Assembly (NCBI RefSeq): GCF_045679555.1
Contig: NC_092090.1
Coordinates: 25,382,038-25,446,037, forward strand
Source of the DNA: Salvelinus alpinus
Lineage: Eukaryota > Chordata > Actinopteri > Salmoniformes > Salmonidae
Length of the DNA: 64,000 nucleotides
Direction: 5' to 3'
The notes beneath the pieces were generated by a model that ran no database searches, had not been told where the DNA came from, and saw only the letters and a list, made by a program, of their open reading frames with translations. A program made the position numbers and the translations under genes. Shown one piece after another: positions 133-30,136 of the stretch (within the stretch, counting starts at the first letter, position 1; every line of letters begins with the position of its first letter).

Positions 133-1444
133 TAGTTACACATAATCCTCCTACTTATGATTCTTCTCAAGCCTCGTCACTGCAGCTGCTAGCTGGAATG
201 GGAACACACAGGACACATTCCAGTTTCAAACTCCAGTTCCTAAAGGCTTCGGCTCCAGAAGACATCTCTCTGCTTGGCCTGCTTCCCAGTCCTGACAGGT
301 GCAGGTACAGGCCACTGGGTTTCTGCCCAGGCTATACAAGTTGACTGTGATGCCCTGTGGAATGCACAATGGCCCTGATGGCATGGGAGTGCCTGGAAGG
401 TGACAAACAACTGTTCCAGTGCCAGCCAGCTGCAGCAAGGGCATTGGCCTAGTGGCCTCTAACCCAGACCCAGCCAACAGCCATACCAGTGAATTGAAAA
501 CCACTAGCAAGAAGACAGATGTGTGTGAGTGTGAGAGAGTGAGAGCATGACGGTGTGACCATGACCGTGTGAGGCAGAGGCCTGCAGCTACGCCCCCCCC
601 CCCCCCCCCCCCAGAGTTCTCATCAGGCATAAAGCTCATGGTTTCACTTCAGAGCAATACTCAGACTGAACCTTCTGATAGTTAAAGCCACATGAATACA
701 TAACTACATTCCCTTGTAAAATGTATAGAGCTATTGACTTTTGCTTACTGATTTGAACAGTTGATTCATTTGATTAATACTAGAGAAGAATAATGAAAGA
801 TGGAACATTCTGGCAAACACTTCAGTTCCTTGCACCCCTCTGAAAAATGTGAAACCTGTCAACAGCACGACATCACTTATTTACCGAGCATGTAATTTAT
901 CTATTTTAGGAAACACTTAATAGCCTAACCACATCATGTAAACCTCAACACACAACAGCTCACAGCCGTTAGCTACAGTCCCACAACAACATGTGACCTG
1001 GTCTCTAACCATTTTCCAACAACTGGTATTTTATGAATTGAGGGAGGCTTAGACAGGCAATTAAATGACGCCATGTTGTTCACTAAATATTTTCACATCA
1101 ACAGTCCATGGGAATTGAATGTGATGTCTGCCCTGAAACGTGTTGGTTTCTCAGCCATTGAATAAAGCTATTGCAACACTGTTCATAGTAGAAGAGAGCT
1201 TTGAAGACGGATAAACAAAGCATTTTTGTAGGTAGTTAAATGACATCAAATAAGCAACCACCAACTAACAGTCTGCTTCAGTCCAACACTGTTGGATATA
1301 TTAATTGTTATTACATTTAGTAGGTTTTTATGTTGTTTCATGTTGTTGGTAGTGTCATAAATTCTCACTAAAAATAAACATCTGCGTTCAAAAAAAGAGT
1401 GAAGATCCTGTCTTACTTCCAGAGAGGATAGTCTAGGCAGTAGC
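133..1444. other. Intergenic stretch, no gene seen
   Basis: About 1.3 kb without a supported gene. It holds a run of 20 C at 593-612 and a short GT/GA-rich patch near 520-545. The minus-strand open frame across 226-639 owes its poly-glycine to the C run and has no recognisable domain. Nothing else stands out. Confidence 0.5.
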
Positions 1445-2030
1445 TTAACCTCTCCACTTCACATCATACTGCTCACTCTTCTGTCAGGTCAGCCTTGAAA
1501 TGACCTTCCTTAACCTCTCCACTTCACATCATACTGCTCACTCTTCTGTCAGGTCAGCCTTGAAATGACCTTCCTTAACCTCTCCACTTCACATCATACT
1601 GCTCACTCTTCTGTCAGGTCAGCCTTGAAATGACCTTCCTTAACCTCTCCACTTCACATCATACTGCTCACTCTTCTGTCAGGTCAGCCTTGAAATGACC
1701 TTCCTTAACCTCTCCACTTCACATCATACTGCTCACTCTTCTGTCAGGTCAGCCTTGAAATGACCTTCCTTAACCTCTCCACTTCACATCATACTGCTCA
1801 CTCTTCTGTCAGGTCAGCCTTGAAATGACCTTCCTTAACCTCTCCACTTCACATCATACTGCTCACTCTTCTGTCAGGTCAGCCTTGAAATGACCTTCCT
1901 TAACCTCTCCACTTCACATCATACTGCTCACTCTTCTGTCAGGTCAGCCTTGAATTACCTTCCTTAACCTCTCCACATCATACTGCTCACTCTTCTGTCA
2001 GGTCAGCCTTGAATTACCTTCCTTAACCTT
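1445..2030. repeat. 65-bp minisatellite, about 9 copies
   Basis: A tandem array with an exact 65-base period: copies start at 1445, 1510, 1575, 1640, 1705, 1770, 1835, 1900 and 1965. Units begin ttaacctctccacttcacat and are almost identical. The last one or two copies are degenerate, carrying gaattacc instead of gaaatgacc and a short deletion. High identity suggests recent expansion or ongoing homogenisation. Confidence 0.95.
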
Positions 2031-2255
2031 CCTGATCGATTTCAGTCTGGCATGGTTCTCACTACAAAATACCATTAAGGGCGCTTAATTAACAAGTGCT
2101 TAAAGGGCTCTACACTGCAACACTCAATTGATCTTCTTGGCAAGAGAACACCATCAAAAGGATAGGTTCTACCCTGGCAAGGTTGACGATAAAGGTTAGG
2201 AGAACGAAAAATACACCACATGACCAAAGGTATGTGGACACCACAAGTGCATTGA

Positions 2256-5200
2256 ATCCAAGATGGCGTAGCAGTCGGACGTGTGTTTGTCTTGTCTTGT
2301 CCCGTGTAAATAGTCCTCGTATTTTTCGTATACATTTCGTATATATTTTAATTTCACTTTCCATCTAGGAACTGAATATACATTCCTACATTCCGCCTCA
2401 CCCAATGTGGTACGGACCTGCTATTTTTTATACTTTAGAACCGTAACCCCAATCAGAAGCTAGCCAGATAACTAGCTACTAGCTAGTAGTCAGTTAGCCA
2501 CTGCTGCGGTCTTCACCCTTAACTCGGACACAGCCAGCTTCAGCTCGGGCCAATACCTGCCAGTCTGCAAGCGCGATATCAACCCAGAGCATATAGGACT
2601 GCTTTTTCTCTACCACATCACTGGATTCCTGACGCAAGCTCTGGACAATTACACCGTATCATCACAGCTAGCTAGCTGCAACCGAGTGGCTACTACTGGC
2701 TAACACCTCTGTCCCGAAGCAAGCACCAGTTAGCCTTGAGCTAGCCTCGAGCTAGGCCCATCTGCCGGCTAGCCGAAGAGGTCTACCAGCGAATTCTTGG
2801 GCTACAATACCTCTTTTGCCAATTGGACTGGACCTTTTTTTGCCGACACAGAGCCCTGCCAATCCATCACAACTGGTCTAAATCAGCTACAAGCTAATTT
2901 AGCCATTTTTTGCCGCTGCTAGCAGCTTTTACCTTCTGCACAGACACCAGCCCTGTTATTAGCCTGGATATTACTCACCAATTTACCAGCATCGGACTGT
3001 CTCTCGACAACAACGCCAGATTCCTGCCGTAATCCCTGAGCCACTACTTCTGATCCTCACAGCTAGCTTGCAGCTAGCGCAGCTAGCGCCACTGCCACGA
3101 AGCTAGCACCAGTTAGCAAACACAATTCTACAATTCACAACCTCTCTTTCGCCATCGCCATCCGGCTTGGATTCTCTGTCGACACGACCACGTCTGAGCA
3201 GACCCAAAATGGGTGGTCTGAGCAGACCACCCCCCGGGCTACTAACTTTAAACGCCGCGTGCTAGCTTAGTGGAGGCCTCCCTGCTCCATCTACGGCTGC
3301 CCCCTGGACACTATGATCACTTGGCTACATAGCTGATGCCTGCTTGACTGTCCATTAATTCACGGTACTCCATTCTGTTTATTTGTGTTTTATCTGTCGG
3401 CTCTGTGCTTTAACTCAGGATCTGTGTGTAGTTAATCCGACCCTCTCTGCCTAGTCGTCGCCATTTTTACCTGTTGTTGCTGTGTTAGACTAGCACCCTG
3501 TTATTGCTGCTGTTATCTTACCTGTTGTTTTAGCTAGCTCTCCCAATCAAGACCTGCAATCACTTTATGCCTTATTGTATGTCTCTCTCAAATATCAATA
3601 TGCCTTGCATACTGTTGTTCAGGCTAGTTATCATTATCATTGTTTTGGTTTGCAATGGACCCCGTAGTTCCACTCTCCGTACCTCTGATACCTCCTTTGT
3701 CCCACCCCCCACACATGCGGTGACCTCACCCATTGAGACCAGCATGTCCAGAGATACAACCTCTCTTATCATCACCCAGTGCCTGGGCTTGCCTCCGCTG
3801 TACCCGTGCCCCACCATACCCGTCTGCACATTATGCCCAGAATCTATTCTACCACGCCCATAAATCTGCTCCTTTTATTCTTTGTCCCCAACGCTCTAGG
3901 CGACCAGTTTTGATAGCCTTTAGCCGCACCCTCATCCTACTACTCCTCTGTTCCTCGGGTGATGTGGAGGTAAACCCAGGCCCTGCATGTCCCCAGTCAC
4001 CCTCATTTGTTGACTTCTGTGATCGAAAAAGCCTTGGCCTCATGCATGTCAACATCAGAAGCCTCCTCCCTAAGTTTGCCTTACTCACCGCTTTAGCACA
4101 CTCTGCCAACCCTGATGTCCTTGCCGTGTCCGAATCCTGGCTTAGGAAGGCCACCAAAAATTCTGGGATTTCCATACCCAACTATAACACTTTCCGTCAA
4201 GATAGAACTGCCAAAGGGGGAGGAGTTGCAATCTACTGCAGAGATAGCCTGCAAAGTTCTGTCATACTTTCCAGGTCTATGCCCAAACAGTTCGAACTTC
4301 TAATTTTAAAAATTAATCTCTCCAGAAATAAGTCTCTCACTGTTGCCGCCTGCTACCGACCCCCCTCAGCTCCCAGCTGTGCCCTGGACACCATCTGTGA
4401 ATTGATCGCTCCCCATCTAGCTTCAGAGTTTGTTCTGTTAGGTGACCTAAACTGGGATATGCTTAACACCCCGGCAGTCCTACAATCCAAGCTTGATGCC
4501 CTCAATCTCACACAAATCATCAAGGAACCCACCAGGTACAACCCTAAATCCGTAAACATGGGCACCCTAATAGACATTATCCTGACCAACCTGCCCTCCA
4601 AATACACCTCTGCTGTCTTCAATCAAGATCTCAGCGATCACTGCCTCATTGCCTGTATCCGCCACGGGTCCGCGGTCAAACGACCACCCCTCATCACTGT
4701 CAAACGCTCCCTAAAACACTTCTGCGAGCAGGCCTTTCTAATCGACCTGGCCCGGGTACCCTGGAAGGATATTGACCTCATCCCGTCAGTTGAGGATGCC
4801 TGGTCATTCTTTAAAAGTTACTTCCTCACCATATTAGACAAGCATGCTCCGTTCAAAAAATGCAGAACCAAGAACAGATATAGCCCTTGGTTCACTCCAG
4901 ACCTGACTGCCCTCGACCAGCACAAAAACATCCTGTGGCGAACTGCAATAGCATCGAAGAGCCCCCGCGATATGCAACTGTTCAGGGAAGTCAGGAACCA
5001 ATACACGCAGTCAGTCAGGAAAGCAAAGGCCAGCTTTTTCAAGCAGAAATTTGCATCCTGTAGCTCTAACTCCAAAAAGTTCTGGGATACTGTAAAGTCC
5101 ATGGAAAACAAGAGCACCTCCTCCCAGCTGCCCACTGCACTGAGGCTAGGTAACACGGTCACCACTGATAAGTCCGTGATAATCGAAAACTTCAACAAAC

Positions 5201-6047
5201 ATTTCTCAATGGCTGGCCATGCCTTCCTCCTGGCGACTCCAACCTTGGCCAATAGCCCCGCCCCCCCCGCTGCTACTCGCCCAAGCCTCCCCAGCTTCTC
5301 CTTTACCCATATCCAGATAGCAGATGTTCTGAAAGAGCTGGAAAACCTGGACCCATACAAATCAGCTGGGCTTGACAATCTGGACCCCCTATTTCTGAAA
5401 CTGTCCGCCGCCATTGTCGCACCCCCTATTACCAGCCTGTTCAACCTCTCCTTTGTATCATCTGAGATCCCCAAGGATTGGAAAGCTGCCGCGGTCATCC
5501 CCCTCTTCAAAGGGGGAGACACCCTGGACCCAAACTGTTACAGACCTATATCCATCCTGCCCTGCCTATCTAAGGTCTTCGAAAGCCAAGTCAACAAACA
5601 GATCACTGACCATCTCGAATCCCACCGTACCTTCTCCGCTGTGCAATCCGGTTTCCGAGCCGGTCACGGGTGCACCTCAGCCACGCTCAAGGTACTAAAC
5701 GATATCATAACCGCCATCGATAAAAGACATTACTGTGCAGCCGTCTTCATCGACCTGGCCAAGGCTTTCGACTCTGTCAATCACCATATTCTTATCGGCA
5801 GACTCAGTAGCCTCGGTTTTTCTAATGACTGCCTTGCCTGGTTCACCAACTACTTTGCAGACAGAGTTCAGTGTGTCAAATCGGAGGGCATGTTGTCCGG
5901 TCCTCTGGCAGTCTCTATGGGGGTACCACAGGGTTCAATTCTCGGGCCGACTCTTTTCTCTGTATACATCAATGATGTTGCTCTTGCTGCGGGCGATTCC
6001 CTGATCCACCTCTACGCAGACGACACCATTCTATATACTTCCGGCCC
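2256..6047 (+). mobile_element. CR1/L2-like LINE, 5' end present, 3' end missing
   Basis: Starts with the LINE-type leader ccaagatggcgtagcagtcg, then about 1.4 kb of non-coding leader rich in gctagc motifs, then the endonuclease/reverse transcriptase frame. The same protein is found at 25.7-30.1 kb and, as a 3' piece, at 43.45-44.1 kb. This copy stops immediately after the YADD box and lacks the C-terminal part and 3' tail that the other copies have. That is unusual, because LINE copies are normally truncated at the 5' end. Confidence 0.85.
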
Positions 6048-6060
6048 GGATGTTTGGTGA
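3733..6060 (+). CDS. LINE ORF: 2A-like peptide, AP endonuclease and reverse transcriptase
   Basis: An open frame of 775 codons, the largest in the window. Residues 65-75 are hydrophobic, followed by GDVEVNPGP at 76-84, which fits the 2A consensus D-[VI]-E-x-N-P-G-P. Next comes an apurinic-type endonuclease: HVNIRSLLPKF, a catalytic ESWL, GDLNWDM and the SDH triad element at 301-303. The reverse transcriptase follows, with KSAGLDNL, YRPISILPCLSKVFE, QSGFRAGHGC, FIDLAKAFDSVNH, GVPQGSILGP and the catalytic YADD at 761-764. The final few residues and the stop come from the adjoining Tc1 sequence, so the thumb and C-terminus are missing. The true start is uncertain: an overlapping frame at 3567-3863 could be the original N-terminus after a frame change. 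The RT palm is complete up to YADD, but a functional enzyme is unlikely. Confidence 0.85.
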   Translation: MRPACPEIQPLLSSPSAWACLRCTRAPPYPSAHYAQNLFYHAHKSAPFILCPQRSRRPVLIAFSRTLILLLLCSSGDVEVNPGPACPQSPSFVDFCDRKSLGLMHVNIRSLLPKFALLTALAHSANPDVLAVSESWLRKATKNSGISIPNYNTFRQDRTAKGGGVAIYCRDSLQSSVILSRSMPKQFELLILKINLSRNKSLTVAACYRPPSAPSCALDTICELIAPHLASEFVLLGDLNWDMLNTPAVLQSKLDALNLTQIIKEPTRYNPKSVNMGTLIDIILTNLPSKYTSAVFNQDLSDHCLIACIRHGSAVKRPPLITVKRSLKHFCEQAFLIDLARVPWKDIDLIPSVEDAWSFFKSYFLTILDKHAPFKKCRTKNRYSPWFTPDLTALDQHKNILWRTAIASKSPRDMQLFREVRNQYTQSVRKAKASFFKQKFASCSSNSKKFWDTVKSMENKSTSSQLPTALRLGNTVTTDKSVIIENFNKHFSMAGHAFLLATPTLANSPAPPAATRPSLPSFSFTHIQIADVLKELENLDPYKSAGLDNLDPLFLKLSAAIVAPPITSLFNLSFVSSEIPKDWKAAAVIPLFKGGDTLDPNCYRPISILPCLSKVFESQVNKQITDHLESHRTFSAVQSGFRAGHGCTSATLKVLNDIITAIDKRHYCAAVFIDLAKAFDSVNHHILIGRLSSLGFSNDCLAWFTNYFADRVQCVKSEGMLSGPLAVSMGVPQGSILGPTLFSVYINDVALAAGDSLIHLYADDTILYTSGPDVW

Positions 6061-6769
6061 TTAGGCCTGGCTCGCAGTAAGCGTTCCAATTCATCCCTAA
6101 GGTGTTCGATGGGGTTGAAGTCAGAGCTCTGTACAGGCCAGAAAAGTTCTTCCACACCGATCGACAAACCATTTCTGTGTGGACCTTGCTTTGTGCACTG
6201 GGCATTGTCATGCTTAAACGTTAAAGGGACTCCCCAAATGGTTTCCACAAAATTGTGAGCACAGAATCGTCTAGAATGTCATTGTACGCTGTAGCATGAA
6301 GATCTCCCTTCACTGGAACTAAGGGGCCTATGGCCGAACCATGAAAAACAGCCCCAGACCATTATTCCTCCTCCACCAAACTTCACAGTTGGCACTATGC
6401 ATTCCGGGCAGTAGTGAATGTTGCAACAGAGGACAGACTATTTTCAGATCCTACGCGCTTCAGCACTCGGCGGTCCCGTTCTGTGAGCTTGTGTGGACTA
6501 CCACTTTGCGGCTGAGCCGATGTTGCTCCTAGACGTTTCCACTTCACTATGACAGCACTTACAGTTGCCTGGGGCAGCTTTAGCAGGGCAGAAATTTGAT
6601 GAAATTACTTGCTGGAAATGTAGAATCCTATGACGGTGCCATGTTTAAAGTCACTGAGCTCTTCAGTAAGGCCATTCTACTGCCAATACACCTGTAAGCA
6701 ACCTGTGTGGCTGAACTAGCCGAGTCCACTCATTTGAAGGGGTGTCCACATACTTTTGTATATATAGTG

Positions 6770-7726
6770 TAAATTAATTAATTGGACCAGCGGCGGAAGA
6801 AAACGTACGTAGTGAATGGTAGCAGTAAAGAAAGTCTGCCATAAAAAAACAACTGTTTTCCTGTAATATAATTAATTTAAACATTTTTCAAATGATCTAC
6901 AACCACTTTATTACACGTTTTTGCGACCGGTAGTCGTGTTTTCAATGTTAATCCTGTAAAATCAGCAACAGCGCTGGCCCAATTAATGTGTTGATTTGCA
7001 GATGTGTCACATGGATTTATTACATGGTCTTAACCTGTATTTTTTCTAAAATCAAATCAATGTTTATTGGTCGGGTACACAGATTTGCCGATGTTATCGC
7101 AGGTGCCACGAAATGCTTGTGTTTCTAGCTCTCAACAGTGCAGTAATGTCTAGCAACACAAAACAAACAATCCAAAAAGTGAAATTAAAGAATTTAAAGT
7201 AATGTCTGAAAAAAGTCAATTAACAACCCAAATAGCACTATAAAATCCAAATGCAATCTACACTGGATAATCTACACGAGCTGCGCTTTCGATCTAGCAT
7301 CCTGGAAAACTTATGGAAACCACTACTTGATTGAGTAGGAAACCACTGCCTTCCCTCAGGAGAGGTTAGAGCTCTAAATAGGAAAATTACAACTAATTTC
7401 GCTTGTTCAACTAATGCCCCATATTTAGGCAATTATCCATATGTAAGTAATTATAATATATGGATCTGTTTTTACAAATTGAATGCAACAAACAGTGTAA
7501 CACAAACCAGCTGTAAAAAGCTATTAGGATATCAATTTCTCCTGGCTGTGGAAATAAGCCAGAACATATGCTTCCAACATTGAATATCCCCATGAAAGTA
7601 AATGACTTCTGCCTAATTGAGAAGTAATGAAACGATCCCAAAGCACCGTACAAACTAGGCTTTTTATTCATCGCAAGGGGACCAAGTGCACAAAAGAGGT
7701 ACAACGGGATTCTTAGTAGTGTAACA
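6770..7726. other. Non-genic, contains a dispersed repeat
   Basis: No gene seen. The stretch from about 7050 to 7200 (atcaaatcaatgtttattgg onward) resembles a common salmonid dispersed repeat by memory of its motif; its class is not certain. The remainder is AT-rich unique-looking sequence. Confidence 0.35.
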
Positions 7727-7885
7727 GTCCCGTGTGGCTCAGTTGGTAGAGCATGGTGCTTGCAACGCCAGGGTTGTTGGTTCGATTCCCACGGGGGACC
7801 AGTACAGAAAAAAGTATGAAAAATGTATGCGCTCATTACTGTAAGTCCCTCTGGATAAGAGTGTCTGATAAATGACAAATGATTA
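7727..7885 (+). mobile_element. tRNA-derived SINE
   Basis: The head has a pol III A box (tggctcagttggtagagc) and B box (ggttcgattccc) at tRNA-like spacing. It is followed by a non-tRNA body ending in ctggataagagtgtctgataaatgac, the tail typical of salmonid SINEs. It is not a functional tRNA gene: the fold is incomplete and the sequence runs on into the SINE body. Confidence 0.85.
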
Positions 7886-7962
7886 AAAATGTGAAAGCTA
7901 GGGCAAGCACAACCCAAGCAACAGTGCAGTCTTCATCGAGATTGAAAACAACCTTCAACAAA

Positions 7963-8262
7963 TCACCCAGTCAGATATTTGCCGTAGTGATTATGCTGTA
8001 GCTGAGCACCAATAAACATCTCACCCAGTCAGATATTTGCCGTAGTGATTATGCTGTAGCTGAGCACCAATAAACATCTCACACAGTCAGATATTTGCCG
8101 TAGTGATTATGCTGTAGCTGAGCACCAATAAACATCTCACACAGTCAGATATTTGCCGTAGTGATTATGCTGTAGCTGAGCACCAATAAACATCTCACAC
8201 AGTCAGATATTTGCCGTAGTGATTATGCTGTAGCTGAGCACCAATAAACATCTCACACAGCC
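7963..8262. repeat. 58-bp minisatellite, about 5 copies
   Basis: Units start at 7963, 8021, 8079, 8137 and 8195, exactly 58 bases apart, with a partial sixth at 8253. The unit includes gtcagatatttgccgtagtg and gagcaccaataaacatc. The first two copies share a cacccag variant and later ones cacacag, which suggests directional duplication. Confidence 0.95.
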
Positions 8263-9305
8263 AGACTTGGCAGATATCCAAGGCACAACTTGGATTACTT
8301 ATCTACGAACTCAGGCAAAACCAAACAGGAAAGACGGCCAACTCATCTGAGTCCAATCTCACCACACAATTGGCTCGTCTCTCAAGAGTTTTTTTTTAAT
8401 TTACTGAGCATTCCTTCTCAAGATGATAAACTAATCTTCCAGATCTATAAACTGTGGAAATGAGGCAACTGAACGTGTGTGTGTGTGTGCATGTGTAAAG
8501 TAATGCATAAATGAAGAAGCTACCTTCACTATTATGGTGCTAGTTCAATCAGAGATCCATTAGCCCTGAGAGCTGGTGGCCTTGGTGCTGCACTGATTGA
8601 CCATGACTGGAGTGGACACCACAGAGAGCTACGACAGAACATCAGCAGGACTTTAGTACATAGAGATGAGAAGGTCATTGAGATCCATTAGTGAACATTT
8701 CCTTTATTGGTACCCAGAGGATAAGACACTCAGCAGAGTTCTGATGACAGCATACATATTTATACTTCCCTAGTTTCCCCTCTCTTTCCCTTTCTCCCTC
8801 AGACCACCAGCCACAATGCTAATGACCCACACAATACTGCTGTGGAGATGGTATTAATGACACACCGTGGGGAAAACTGAGGTGTAATATAGATCATTTG
8901 GCTATACATGTCTAGAACCATTTTATCCTCGCACTACTCCTAAACTAAGCTTATATCTCCGTAAAAATACCATGTAGCTCGCCAGCAAAGCAAAGCCTTG
9001 AACAGGGTTCCAAATTAAATCCGTCATCGAACCCTAGGACTTCATTCATCTCAGAAAAACTCAGATGCTCCTCCAACTCATTTCAGAATCAAGTCGCACC
9101 GAGTAGCCAAGCACTGTGAGCACCATACATCCAGAGAGAGTTAATTGCTCTGTGAAACCAGTTGCAGAGTCAGCATTGAAGTATAGCACCCACAGCCATG
9201 GAGAAACAAGTACCAACAAGCAGGGCTGTGGTCTACAGCCCCAGCTACACAGCTCTCCTCTCCTCCTAGTGTGTGTGGAGGCATCTGGAGTGGAGGCTAG
9301 CTGCT
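8263..9305. other. Non-genic stretch
   Basis: No supported gene. Contains a short (gt)n tract near 8476-8490. The sequence next to the following minisatellite is free of recognisable coding exons. Confidence 0.4.
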
Positions 9306-9722
9306 GACTATTACCACAGTCAGCTAGCAGGACCAAACTATTACCACAGTCAGCTAGCAGGACCAAACTATTACCACAGTCAGCTAGCAGGACCACACTA
9401 TTACCACAGTCAGCTAGCAGGACCACACTATTACCACAGTCAGCTAGCAGGACCACACTATTACCACAGTCAGCTAGCAGACACAAACTACTACCACAGT
9501 CAGCTAGCAGGACCAAACTATTACCACAGTCAGCTAGCAGGACCAAACTATTACCACAGTCAGCTAGCAGGACCACATTATTACCACAGTCAGCTAGCAG
9601 GACCACACTATTACCACAGTCAGCTAGCATGACCACACTATTACCACAGTCAGCTAGCAGGACCACACTATTACCACAGTCAGCTAGCAGGACCAAACTA
9701 TTATCACAGTCAGCTAGCAGGA
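9306..9722. repeat. 30-bp minisatellite, about 14 copies
   Basis: Period 30, unit cactattaccacagtcagct plus agcaggac and variants. Because 30 is a multiple of 3 the array stays open in both directions, giving a 10-residue repeat (YYHSQLAGP type on plus, LLADCGNSV type on minus). Nothing suggests either frame is translated. Variants aaacta, acacta and acatta are scattered. Confidence 0.95.
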
Positions 9723-10530
9723 CTGACAGGATGTCCCGCACATCACAGAGAGGAACTCTGCAGCTACACAGCTAATATCACCGAGCACAAGTCGAGAACA
9801 TGGGTGAGTGTGGGTGGGTGTGTGCAGAGAAAGATACAGAACAAGTGTATGTATGAAATAGTCAGCCATGGGGGGGGGAGATAAACATACAGAGAGAGAG
9901 AGAGGGATGGAGAGAGCAGTAGAGAGAGAGAGAGAGATATCTGGACTGTCTTCCTGCTATGCTCTGTTAACTCTTTCCACTACTCTTTTACGGTCCACTT
10001 CCACAGGTTTCCTCGGCAACCAGGCAACGTTTGGGGCATTCGTTACCTAACTACCCTCTGACTATGCAAACGTGACACTCCTGGGGCCACCAACGGTGAC
10101 GGGATTAAAGGTACGGATGTCATGTGGTGTTTAAACAACACTCACGAACACCACTATGATATGAACAAGAATATATGCCACTTTGTGACTTTACAAGTCT
10201 GGAAACATAAGAAAACTATCCTTCTAAGTAGATTCTTTGCAAATGTGTGGAGTTGGAGACGGCATTTAATGAAAGGTGTTGGCCGAAGCCATATAAAAAG
10301 GTATGAACCATGTTTCTGAAGCTTTGGTTAACAGTAGGAGCAGTGGACTTCAAAACAATCTCCATAATCTCTAGCACATTCAGAGTCTTATCTTATCGCT
10401 GCAGGTAATGCAGCCTAGGATATCTGCAGATATTCACAACTGAAAAAACAAGAGAATTCATGAGCTAATGTGAACAGAGATAAAATAAGAGGTTAAGAAC
10501 AATACATAACAGATGAATGTATCCCACATA
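9723..10530. other. Non-genic stretch with purine tracts
   Basis: Holds GA-rich tracts around 9886-9940 (agagagagag). No gene that I can support. A bare ATGG followed by gtgagt near 9799 looks like a splice donor, but no coding context accompanies it. Confidence 0.4.
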
Positions 10531-24729: not shown

Positions 24730-25686
24730 AGGGGCAGTGGAGCACAGCACCAGGGTGGTATTCATTAGGTTAGACCAAAGCGTTTGTCAGTTTTCCTACT
24801 ATTGGTTCCTAATGTCTCTAATTGTTTATCCAGAAGGCAACATCAGCTGTCAGCTGCTCACCAACTGCCATGTCATTACCATCCAGACCCAGTACATTAT
24901 CCTCCATAAGTATGATCTGCCTAAAACATGGAAGCAATCATGCTTTTCTGATCGTCGACCAGAAGGTTTTTTCAAGCAACTGTTTCCTCCACTCTTGTTG
25001 ACAACGGTTTAGCAAAGCTTTACATCACAGGGTCTCCTCAAATAGATGGTTCACACATAAATCAAGGCTTGTGATGTGAGAGGTTTTCAAAGACATCCCA
25101 CGTCATCTCCTCTGATGTGTAGATCAGAGATACAGCTGTAAACATCATCAAATCTTCAGCAGACCTCAAAAGAATAGAATTGATTGTAACGTAATTCTAT
25201 AGACACCTGCAGATCTCTCCAAATGCAAGTGACAGGATCTAGTGGAAAGATGTGGCATGTGGCCTCAGTCAGCTTGACTTTACACCACATTTGATTTATG
25301 AAAAAACGCTGAAACATGTCATTTAGTACTTGAACTATTTCTATAACGTGTTTGCTAGTGATGTATGATTGACTTCTCTGAAAGACACAGACTGGACGAA
25401 CCGGTTAAGTTAGCGGATGGCAGTCACATGTAAGTGATACATGAACAGATATTGTACTGTATGTAATGGAGAAGGCATCAGTCACTGCTATGTAAGTGAT
25501 ATGTATACCATGGGGCCTCTGTTGCATAGGAAATACAATGCACAGGCTGGAGGCTTGATTTCATATACATTGTTATGTCATCTTATATTATACCATATTA
25601 TGTAGGTCATTAGGATCACACAGTTCAAGCTTTTTATGTTCATCCTAGGCAATGCTTATGAGTGTGGTGAGCAGAGTTCAAAGTCC
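24730..25686. other. Non-genic stretch
   Basis: No supported gene, repeat array or palindrome between the minisatellite and the LINE. Confidence 0.4.
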
Positions 25687-26580
25687 ACCTTTCCAGAAAT
25701 AAGTCTCTCACCGTTGCCACTTGCTATAGACCACCCTCTGCCCCCAGCTGTGCCCTGGACACCATATGTGAATTGATTGCCCCCCATCTATCTTCAGAGC
25801 TTGTGCTGTTAGGTGACCTAAACTGTGACATGCTTAACACTCCGGCCATCCTACAATCTAAGCTTGATGCCCTCAATCTCACACAAATTATCAATGAATG
25901 TACCAGGTACAACCCCAAATCCATAAACATGGGCACCCTCATAGATATCATCCTAACCAACTTGCCCTCCAAATACACCTCAGCTGTTTTCAACCAAGAT
26001 CTCAGTGATCACTGCCTCATTGCCTGCATCCGTAATGGGTCTGCGGTCAAACGACCACCCCTCATCACTGTCAAACGCTCCCTAAAACACTTCAGCGAGC
26101 AGGCCTTTCTAATCGACCTGGCCCGGGTATCCTGGAAGGATATGGGCCTCATCCCGTCAGTAGAGGATGCCTGGTTATTCTTTAAAAGCACCTTCCTCAC
26201 CATCTTAAATAAGCATGTCCCATTCAACAGATATAGCCCTTGGTTCTCTCCAGACCTGACTGCCCTTAACCAGCACAAAAACATCCTGTGGCGTTCTGCA
26301 TTAGCATCGAATAGCCCCCGTGATATGCAACTTTTCAGGGAAGTTAGGAACAAATATACATTGGCAGTTAGGAAAGCTAAGGCTAGCTTTTTCAAGCAGA
26401 AATTTGCTTCCTGCAACACACTCAAAAAAGTTCTGGGACACTAAATCCATGGAGAATAAGAGCACCTCCCAGCTGCCCACTGCACTGAGGCTAGGAAACA
26501 CCGTCACCACCGATAAATCCACTATAATTTAGATTTTCAATAAGCATTTTTCAACGGCTGGCCATGCTTTCCACCTGGCT

Positions 26581-27677
26581 AACTGTGGATGGAATTTATA
26601 TGTTTAAATGAATGATTAGAATATTCCACCCCGAAACTATATAATTGTATGAAATTGATTAGAATCTTCGGTGAAATATATTAGAATCATCAACCGCTAA
26701 ACTGCAGAGCGCCAAATAAAAAATAAAAAAATATTTATAATCATGAAATCACAAGTGAAATATACCAAAACACAGCTTAGCTTGTTGTTAATCCACCTAT
26801 CGTGTCATATTTTGAAAATATGCTTTACAGCGAAAGCAATCCAAGCGTTTGTGAGTTTATCAATCACTAGACAAAACACTAAGAACAGCTAGCCTTAAAT
26901 TAGCTTGGTCACGAAAGTCAGAAAAGCAATCAAATTAATCGCTTACCTTTGATAATCTTCGGATGTTTGTACTCATGAGACTCCCAGTTACACAATAAAT
27001 GTTATTTTTGTTCGATAAAGATTAGTTTTATAACCAAAAACCGCCATTTGGTTTGCGCGTTATGTTCAGAAAACCACAGGCTCGTTCCGGTCCTGAAGGG
27101 CAGACGAAAATTCCAAAAAGTATCCGTAATGTTCGTAGAAACATGTCAAAGGTTTTTTTATAATCAATCCTCAGGTTGTTTTTAACATACATAATCGATA
27201 ATATTTCAACCGGACGGTAACCTATTCAATACTACAGAGAAAGAAAATGTCGAGCTACATCTGTCGCGCGCAGGAACTAATCAAAGGACACCCGACAGGT
27301 TTTGAAGAAACTCGCTCATTTTTCAAAATAAAAGCTTGAAACTATGTCTAAAGCCTGGTCACAGCCTGAGGAAGCCATTGGAAAATGAATCTGGTTGATA
27401 CCCCTTTAAATGGAGGAGGGGCAGGCAACAGAACAGGGATTTTTCCAAATAAAAGGCACTTCCGGGTTGGATTTCCTCAGGTTTTCGCCTGCAAAATCAG
27501 TTCTGTTATACTCACAGACAATATTTTGAAAGTTTTGGAAACTTTAGAGTGTTTTCTATCCTAATCTGTCAATTATATGCATATTCTAGCATCTGCACCT
27601 GAGAAATAGTCCATTTACCTTGGGAACGTTATTTTTCCAAACATAAAAATTCTGCCCCCTAGCTGAAAGAGGTTTAA
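26581..27677. mobile_element. Unclassified repeat inserted in the LINE
   Basis: About 1.1 kb between the two halves of LINE copy 2, with no coding capacity. It ends cccctagctgaaagagg. I recall segments such as ttttcgcctgcaaaatcagt as common in salmonid DNA but cannot name the family. Confidence 0.5.
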
Positions 27678-28062
27678 TGATGTGTGTAGTCTTAGTCAGT
27701 AAAATTATAATAAATGATGTGTGTAGTTTTAGTCAGAATTAGGGTAAAACAATATATCTGTAAAATATGTCTCTAAAGTATCTTAAACACAGACTGTCTG
27801 AGCAAGATTCGGTGCCGACCTTGGCTAGGGGCCACAGAGATTTGGGAAAGGACAGGGAGTGCTTCTCACAGTCCCTAATCTTTGTCAGCTGGGTAGTGGG
27901 ACGGTGTGTGCGTAGGATACCTTCTGTTTGTGTGCAAAAGTATGTGCGTAAGGAGCTAGTATAAAATGAATGGTTTTGTACAACGAAGGAGCGCGCCCGT
28001 GAATAAACATTTTGACTATCATAGCTAGGCCTCAGTCTGTTTCATTCAACCAGTATCTTACA
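27678..28062 (+). mobile_element. LTR-like block (possible solo LTR)
   Basis: A block of 385 bases starting TG and ending CA. It has a TATA box (tataaaat at about 27960) and, 40 bases later, a poly(A) signal aataaa at 28002-28007, the order expected of U3-R-U5. No clear target duplication and no internal retroelement genes are visible beside it. The start contains a short tandem duplication of gatgtgtgtag. Alternative: part of the unclassified repeat before it. Confidence 0.35.
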
Positions 28063-30136
28063 AATTATGGGGTGCAGACTGAGTAGTTAATTGAATTAGG
28101 TTATGAACATTGAGAACATAATTCTAGTGACACTAACCCTACCCCGGTCAACAGCCCACCACCCCCCACAGCAACTCGCCCAAGCCTCCCCCATTTCTCC
28201 TTCACCCAAATCGAGATAGCTGATGTTCTGAAAGAGCTGAAAAATCTGGACCCCTACAAATCAGCCGGGCTAGACAATCTGGACCCTCTCTTTCTAAAAT
28301 TAGCTACCGAAATTGTTGCAACCCCTATTACTAGCCTGTTCAACCTCTCTTTCGTATCGTCTGAGGTTCCCATAGATTGGAAAGCTGCTGCGGTCATCCT
28401 CCTCTTCAAAAGGGGGAGACACTCTAGACCCAAACTGCTACAGACCTATATCTATCCTACCCTGCCTTTCTAAGGTCTTCGAAAGCCACGTTAACAAATA
28501 GATTACCGACCATTTCGAATCCCACCGTACCTTCTCCGCTATGCAATCTGGTTTCAGAGCTGGTCATGGGTGCACCTCAGCCACCCTCAAGGTCCTAAAC
28601 ATATCATAACCTCCATCGATAAGAGACATTACTGTGCAGCCGTATTCATCGACTCTGTCAATCACAACATTCTTACTAGCAGACTCAACAGCCTTGGTTT
28701 CTCAAATGACTGCCTCACCTGGTTCACCAACTTCTTCTCAGACAGAGTTCGGTGTGTTAAATCGGAGGGCCTGTTGTCCGGACCTATGGCAGTCTCTATG
28801 GGGGTGCCACAGGGTTCAATTCTCGGGCCAACTCTCTTCTCTGTATACATCAATGATGTCGCTCTTGCTGCTGGTGATTCTCTGATCCACCTCTACGCAG
28901 ACGACACCATTCTGTATACATCTGGCCCTTCTTTGGACACTGTTAACTAACCTCCAGACGAGCTTCAATGCCATACAACTCTCTTTCCGTGGCCTCCAAC
29001 TGCTCTTAAATGCAAGTAAAACTAAATGCATGCTCTTCAACCGATCGCTGCCCGAACCCACCCGCCCGTCCAGCATCACTACTCTGGACGGTTCTGACTT
29101 AGAATATGTGGACAACTACAAATACCTAGCTGTCTGGTCAGACTGTAAACTCTCCTTCCAGACTCACATTAAACATCTACAATCCAAAATTTAATCTAGA
29201 ATTGGCTTCCTATTTCGCAACAAAGCATCCTTCACTCATGCTGCCAAACGTACCCTCGTAAAACTGACCATCCTACCGATCCTCAACTTCGGCGATGTCA
29301 TTTACAAAATAGCCTGCATCCAATTTGCTGAGTAGAGTGTTGGAGGCTATCACAGTGCCATCCATTTTGTCACCAAAGCCCCATATACTACCTACCACTG
29401 CGACCTGTACGCTCTCGTTGGCTGGCCCTCACTTTTTACACGTCGCCAAACCCACTGGCTCCAGGTCATCTACAAGTCTCTGCTAGGTAAAGCCCCGCCT
29501 TATCTCAGCTCACTGGTCACCATAGCAGCACCCACCCGTAGCACGCGCTCCAGCTGGTATATCTCACTGGTCACCCCCAAAGCCAATTCTTCCTTTGGCC
29601 GCCTCTCCTTACAGTTCTCTGCTGCCAATGACTGGAACGAACTGCAAAAATCATTAAAGCTACAGACTCTTATCTCCCTCACTAGCTTTAAGCACCAGCT
29701 GTCAGAGCAACTCACAGATCTCTGCACCTGTACATAGCTCATCTGTAAATAGCCCATCTAATCTACCTCATCCCAATACTGTATTTATCTTGCTCCTTTG
29801 CACCCCAGTATCTCTACTTGCACATTCATCTTCTGCACATCTACCATTCCAGTGTTTAATTGCTATATTGTAATTACTTCGCCACCATGACCTATTTATT
29901 GCCTTAACTCCCTTATCTTACCTCATTTGCACATGCTGTATATAGACTTTTTCTACTGTATTATTGACTGTATGTTTGTTTATTCCATGTGTAACTCTGT
30001 GTTGTTGTATGTGTCGAACTGCTTTGCTTTATCTTGGCCAGGTCGCAGTTGCAAATGAGAACTTGTTCTCAACTAGCATACCTGGTTAAATAAATTTTAA
30101 ATAAAATGAAAATAAAAAAGTTGTATCAATCGCAGT

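Follow-up and report, generated by a model that had tools for sequence, protein, structure and literature searches.

In the Rex1, Crack, L2, L2A, CR1, and Ingi clades of LINEs, 2A sequences are said to have been found by Odon et al. in 2013, who reportedly tie 2A to elements with a single open reading frame (ORF). As in the LINE described here, a single ORF of their elements is said to encode both an apurinic/apyrimidinic-type (APE) endonuclease and a reverse transcriptase (RT), the former preceded on its N-terminal side by D(V/I)ExNPGP. In L1Tc of Trypanosoma cruzi, reportedly, a 2A lies in frame with the LINE proteins (going by the title of Heras et al., of 2006); that element belongs to another clade and another host than the salmonid LINE.

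In print, 2A-like sequences in LINEs are treated as established (PMC4981915, PMC12846837), with Odon et al. 2013 cited for 2A in animal LINEs (PMC4981915, PMC11512398, PMC12846837), and 2A recoding is described as a rarity in cellular genomes (PMC12846837). The occurrence of 2A-like peptides in APE-type LINEs of other animals, invoked in a preliminary description of this DNA, is thus stated in print (PMC4981915, PMC12846837). In StopGo peptides, D12, E14, and N16 contact 28S rRNA while the upstream Leu-rich helix lies in the tunnel; the mutants L7A and L9A bring activity down to 34% and 82%, respectively; Leu-rich motifs ending in (A/S/C)G go with D at position 12 (p12); and the upstream context is essential, chimeras being often inactive (PMC12846837). 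The published 2A model has three outcomes, one of which is termination without resumption, and in sea urchin NLR proteins the 2A doubles as a signal sequence (PMC4981915). The ribosome tunnel holds 30–40 residues (PMC2978324). Among constructs with an N-terminal signal, some retain 2A activity and have the downstream protein in the cytosol or nucleus; in others, the 2A is inhibited, the outcome being set by the residues just upstream (PMC2978324).

That 2A occurs in APE-type animal LINEs is already published, and the salmonid LINE is a well-supported further example; the layout of its leader is the less certain and the more interesting part. No report of 2A in a salmonid LINE stands among the literature matches listed, which covered titles and abstract openings (the contents of Odon 2013 and Rao 2025 lie outside that search).

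The motif and its upstream context

The window is the whole stretch of DNA analyzed, 64,000 nucleotides of Salvelinus alpinus (NC_092090.1, positions 25,382,038 to 25,446,037). On its forward strand, 3958-3984 encode GDVEVNPGP, preceded by the residues RTLILLLLCSS and with an endonuclease domain downstream.

3910..3960, forward strand: Leu-rich hydrophobic run LIAFSRTLILLLLCSSG, directly upstream of the core and forming the upstream part of the 2A unit
3961..3984, forward strand: 2A/StopGo core DVEVNPGP (translation, pattern match, and selection data), with the skip predicted between Gly (3979-3981) and Pro (3982-3984)
4048..4641, forward strand: APE-type endonuclease domain (Pfam PF03372, E 4.1e-9, residues 106-303 of the 3733 frame)

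The observation of the motif is confirmed: GDVEVNPGP is found where it had been read as residues 76-84 of the frame from 3733, and both translation and Pfam agree with its placement after a Leu-rich stretch and ahead of the endonuclease. DVEVNPGP matches exactly the consensus D-[VI]-E-x-N-P-G-P with which it had been compared, with, in addition, G at p11 and L at p7. It likewise matches the core (D/G/C/N)(V/I)ExNPGP and is in frame in intact copies. NPGP occurs once across the six frames of the window, and a degenerate DNA pattern for D[V/I/M]ExNPGP gives one match there versus none in 100 dinucleotide-preserving shuffles.

Upstream, the LINE reads LLLLCSSG. Comparison by eye with PMC12846837 gives L at p7, S at p10, G at p11, and D at p12, whereas p8-p9 are C and S. 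Like the viral StopGo motifs 2/6 (LLLLSG-like), the LINE has a Leu-rich run ending in (A/S/C)G, D at p12, and L at p7; unlike them, it has LLCSSG at p6-p11 and V at p15 (PMC12846837). This departure of the hexapeptide LLCSSG from the LLLLSG type counts against a working 2A. Since p7 (L), p10-p11 (S-G), and p12 (D) fit and p8-p9 (C/S) do not, skipping is expected, possibly at a submaximal level.

With the ribosome at Gly-Pro, the Leu-rich run and DVExN would lie inside the exit tunnel; since the tunnel holds 30–40 residues (PMC2978324), the run beside the motif would still be in the ribosome at skipping. The Gly-Pro bond would be skipped, with release of a leader of about 139 residues, and translation would resume to yield a separate endonuclease/RT of about 958 residues with Pro as its first residue. 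Direct observation covers the motif, where it lies in the ORF of intact copies, how many copies of it exist, and its preservation by selection (see below); the sequence comparisons support the 2A interpretation proposed at the outset. We consider it highly probable that the LINE copy in the window is a dead one, belonging to a very abundant APE-type family that was probably active in recent times and whose single ORF carries a putatively working 2A/StopGo.

The motif could also act mainly as a device for release or attenuation, with ribosomes often stopping without resuming, which would leave the leader in excess over the endonuclease/RT. Termination without resumption is indeed among the published outcomes (PMC4981915), and a low enzyme-to-leader ratio would, we infer, suit a retroelement. 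Sequence cannot tell attenuation from ordinary skipping, the question being one of ratio; as the main function, attenuation appears unlikely.

The window copy and its surroundings

In the window copy, the frame of the motif is not that of the N-terminal part of the leader.

3567..3821, forward strand: N-terminal part of the leader, in a frame different from that of the motif (ORF 3567-3863; the same residues are in the motif frame in copies L012 and L042)
3821..3822, forward strand: bases flanking the frame break (pairwise alignment to L012: 2 bases absent from the window copy)
5533..6048, forward strand: RT domain, its 3′ end missing in the window copy (Pfam PF00078, E 2.1e-27, residues 601-772)

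Between 3533 and 4074, all 542 aligned bases are identical to L012, and the window is 2 bases short at 3821/3822; the frame of L012 is open through the leader/motif region. The ORF start at 3733 given in the preliminary description is an artefact, because the window copy is without these two bases: before about 3823, that frame is wrong. The N-terminus of the family starts in the window at ATG 3567, in a frame other than the motif's (further in-frame ATGs of that ORF are at 3579 and 3600). Codon-usage scoring of the upstream region was ambiguous, and the intact copies then settled the frame. A leader bounded by the in-frame TGA 3721 and ATG 3655 was ruled out by the other frame of the intact copies together with the missing 2 bases. 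The alignment of the window copy to the LINE ends at about 6050, within the RT domain, and the copy is therefore dead.

A second copy of the family lies further downstream:

25677..30110, forward strand: second copy of the LINE family, 5′-truncated and without the motif region, 3′ part present (tblastn 85%, 83%, and 67% identity; blastn 86%; 3′ end set by eye)

It is interrupted at 26580-28137 by about 1.56 kb of other sequence between its two aligned halves.

Inverted arms of 31 bases (2212-2242 and 6741-6771), 81% complementary and 4.5 kb apart, flank the 3′-deficient LINE copy. We take these arms to resemble Tc1-like ends, and LINE copy and arms together suggest transposons that are nested or rearranged. 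In the region 7727-7860, ARAGORN reports a tRNA-Ala (7727-7800) that, by eye, is the tRNA-like head of a salmonid-type SINE. Tandem arrays occur at 1314-2019 (65-base spacing), 7899-8323 (58 bases), and 9247-9813 (30 bases), the last being open in one listed ORF per strand.

Copy number and selection on the motif

GDVEVNPGP has 4,947 exact DNA matches (2,449 + 2,498) in the 2.37 Gb genome to which the window belongs, and the reversed pattern has none. A protein search with the endonuclease segment gives 28,232 first-look candidates, of which 150 were scored, a choice that favors the youngest copies; all 150 are 100% identical over 217 residues. On account of this identity, the LINE family would be young and probably recently active.

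Copies were sampled through a downstream pattern, NIRSLLPK, because selecting by the motif itself had to be avoided. The pattern has 5,625 matches (2,812 + 2,813; reversed control 3), and the sample consists of 60 of the first 100, all on one contig (C1). Eight were dropped as being without the motif region: L041, L049, L052, L059, L065, and L071 are truncated, rearranged, or another element, and in L095 and L097 a leader-like sequence remains with the motif deleted, which speaks against a working 2A. The motif region is held by the other 52, and DVEVNPGP is kept in 42 of them; it is absent from L040, L064, L066, L070, L077, L090, L091, L094, L096, and L098, with Ala at the free position x in L077. 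The core is kept in L051 and L092 with the Leu-rich run absent, again a point against the 2A reading, and in L076 with the run partly missing. Among 30 endonuclease-identical copies, 28 retain DVEVNPGP. The neighbors L094, L096, and L098 (C1, 53.4-53.8 Mb), entered once in the selection table, have DVEVYPGP (Asn16 to Tyr) in common, perhaps through local duplication of a dead copy.

Changes in at least three copies (shared) were set against private ones, each split into synonymous:nonsynonymous, in a plain nucleotide alignment read in the frame of L042. The table excludes changes in exactly two copies (core 0:1), gapped codons, columns populated by fewer than 15 sequences, and any codon separated by more than one step from all codons present in at least three copies. 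The counts that follow are of variant types from few subfamilies and not of independent events, a limit that weighs against the preferred reading:

Core, 8 codons: shared 5:0, private 2:8, Fisher p=0.007
2A unit, 19 codons: shared 9:1, private 4:14, p=0.001
Leader upstream of the 2A unit: shared 52:72, private 39:120, p=0.002
Linker downstream of the core: shared 6:6, private 5:20, p=0.12
Endonuclease, 153 codons: shared 70:29, private 55:165, p=2e-14

Constraint is stronger on the 2A unit than on the remainder of the leader (p=0.005), where it is weak, and cannot be distinguished between the 2A unit and the endonuclease (p=0.28). Among the sampled copies, a single shared amino-acid change, L to F, falls in the final 11 residues of the Leu-rich run. 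Because the core has 5:0 shared and 2:8 private changes, the motif is, as far as these alignments tell, under purifying selection in active lineages and in decay in dead ones; this was the outcome to be checked, according to the preliminary description, by aligning copies over DxExNPGP.

Genome-wide, another residue at x is found at 89 places (reversed control 0) and, with Ala, Asp, Glu, or Gly at x and the Gly before Asp optional, at 98 places (reversed control 6). Other LINE families using 2A with a different x were considered and rejected: going by the matched letters (89/89 and 48/98), these places resemble, by eye, point variants within the one family. In the 48 rows shown of the 98, Ala is at x in 32 and one identical 23-mer occurs in 22. 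This recurrent Val-to-Ala 23-mer, on many contigs and including L077, may be a propagated variant, perhaps a sub-lineage. At the fixed positions, Pro17 to Leu occurs at 45 places and Gly18 to Ser at 31 (reversed controls 0). The argument that the Val-to-Ala recurrence is a sign of a freer x was dropped because these two counts do not clearly bear it out.

Distant relatives

In tblastn protein scans of viral contigs and prokaryote assemblies, no relatives were found. A pattern of three Leu/Phe codons, three free codons, and G-D-[V/I/M]-E-x-N-P-G-P has no match in the viral contigs and two in the prokaryote assemblies:

L099, JANQNF010000073.1 (an 'archaeon' MAG), 355-3609, reverse strand: LINE sequence with a 2A motif
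L100, JAAXHI010000280.1 (a Poribacteria MAG), 2986-4458, reverse strand: 2A motif ahead of a Cys-rich protein

Both contigs are probably eukaryotic and mis-binned into prokaryote MAGs. L099 has an open frame of 1,085 codons with endonuclease and RT, an 89-residue leader that is hydrophobic at its N-terminus, and the sequence FFLLLSGDVEFNPGP. Starting at the motif, 699 residues align with the window protein at 28% identity (E 6e-65), with DVEFNPGP at the homologous position and a layout like that of the window's LINE. In L100, where the frame is open to the contig end, LLLLLLCGDVEVNPGP lies upstream of a Cys-rich protein that has no Pfam match at E up to 0.001 and, by eye, appears ORF1-like, in the endonuclease's place after the 2A.

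These sequences also bear on the possibility that the motif is kept as an ordinary peptide, without skipping, as a turn or linker before the endonuclease or as part of a membrane anchor. The adjoining hydrophobic run could serve as such an anchor, and changes at x (98; control 6) are not clearly commoner than Pro17 to Leu (45) or Gly18 to Ser (31). An ordinary peptide is nevertheless quite improbable, given that, in the sample, shared amino-acid changes are absent from all 8 core positions, whereas the downstream linker is freer (6:6) and varies in length between subfamilies, and that the octapeptide pattern recurs in L099, which is 28% identical, differs in its flanks, and has another residue at x. 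Still less probable is an effect of chance or copy number, with thousands of young near-identical copies merely sharing the motif. Since all 150 scored copies are identical in the endonuclease segment, conservation among them is by itself uninformative; in several diverged subfamilies, however, the peptide is kept despite synonymous codon differences in the motif and many residue differences on either side of it.

Open frame and leader of the intact copies

Upstream of the anchor NIRSLLPK, 173 codons are open in 26 of the 30 endonuclease-identical copies (the others being L013, L024, L025, and L030). In this open stretch of L012, ATGs occur at codons 12, 16, and 23, and also at 71, the first corresponding to window 3567. 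The product from the first ATG to the 2A Gly has 139 residues in L012 and L042, instead of the approximately 84 expected from the window frame; in a second subfamily (L044, with its own ATG), it has 132. Of the 150 scored copies, 68 have an open frame of 1,108 codons, the most frequent length, and, downstream of the 2A, Pfam finds an APE-type endonuclease and an RT in one ORF, as in other 2A-bearing APE-type LINEs. By subtraction, the frame counts about 1,097 codons when begun at the first ATG, about 958 of them past the skip site. Intact copies would start at the ATG matching 3567 and release a leader of ∼139 residues and an endonuclease/RT of ∼958 residues.

The motif, the position of which outside the true ORF had been named as grounds for refutation, thus lies inside that ORF. 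Translation from ATG 4039, where the first endonuclease strand lies, is hardly credible: 4039 is the first in-frame ATG past the upstream stop in the window copy, but those 173 codons are open in 26/30 copies, with the early ATGs in L012, and constraint is weak but significant on the leader and strong on the motif. Five of five copies lack any further sense-strand ATG ORF of at least 50 codons over the 1,521 bases preceding the anchor; in the window copy, no forward ORF of at least 80 codons is listed from 2261 to 3566 (the 5′ end of the element, at about 2261, is placed by eye).

A separate hydrophobic segment is found near the start of the leader:

3609..3653, forward strand: N-terminal hydrophobic segment ILLFRLVIIIIVLVC, candidate signal sequence or signal anchor (coordinates counted from ATG 3567)

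In L042, where its residues are identical to those of the window, this segment has a Kyte-Doolittle mean of 3.41 (shuffle p=0.0002). With the start Met picked by hand and hydrophobicity compared with leader shuffles, a hydrophobic N-terminal stretch stands above the shuffles in five of seven leaders (L042, p=0.0002; L077, 0.0016; L044, 0.03; L086, 0.019; L099, 0.016) and not in L089 (p=0.25) or L100 (p=0.16). Neither the L042 leader nor that of L044 matches any Pfam entry at E up to 10, and we count this against the preferred explanation. The run beside the motif, suggested earlier as a targeting signal, is more likely a part of the 2A unit, the segment at the true N-terminus being the better candidate.

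That N-terminal segment, about 100 residues earlier, would already be outside the tunnel at skipping and could engage SRP. A leader with such a signal-like N-terminus may be drawn to membranes, and skipping would free the endonuclease/RT from it. As in sea urchin NLR proteins, a hydrophobic run and a 2A core would lie near the N-terminus with skipping linked to targeting; unlike there, where a 26-residue 2A is itself the N-terminal signal (PMC4981915), the LINE 2A ends at residue 132-139, behind a separate N-terminal hydrophobic segment, which places it outside the sea urchin NLR type. The 2A inhibition that accompanies upstream signal sequences in some constructs (PMC2978324) counts against a working 2A in this position. 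Tentatively, then, and with more doubt than confidence, the leader with its two hydrophobic segments may be targeted to the ER or another membrane and cut from the endonuclease/RT by the 2A, in a leader-2A-enzyme layout that would be old and general for one-ORF LINEs and common to fish and the host of L099.

Implications

Set against the rarity of 2A recoding in cellular genomes (as stated in PMC12846837), a vertebrate genome here contains a LINE family with thousands of motif-bearing copies, many of them full-length and open. The evidence that the peptide matters to the element is population-genetic. The private variants of decaying copies constitute a natural mutant series, and the family makes it possible to ask, in a vertebrate, why LINEs use 2A and what part the released leader plays.
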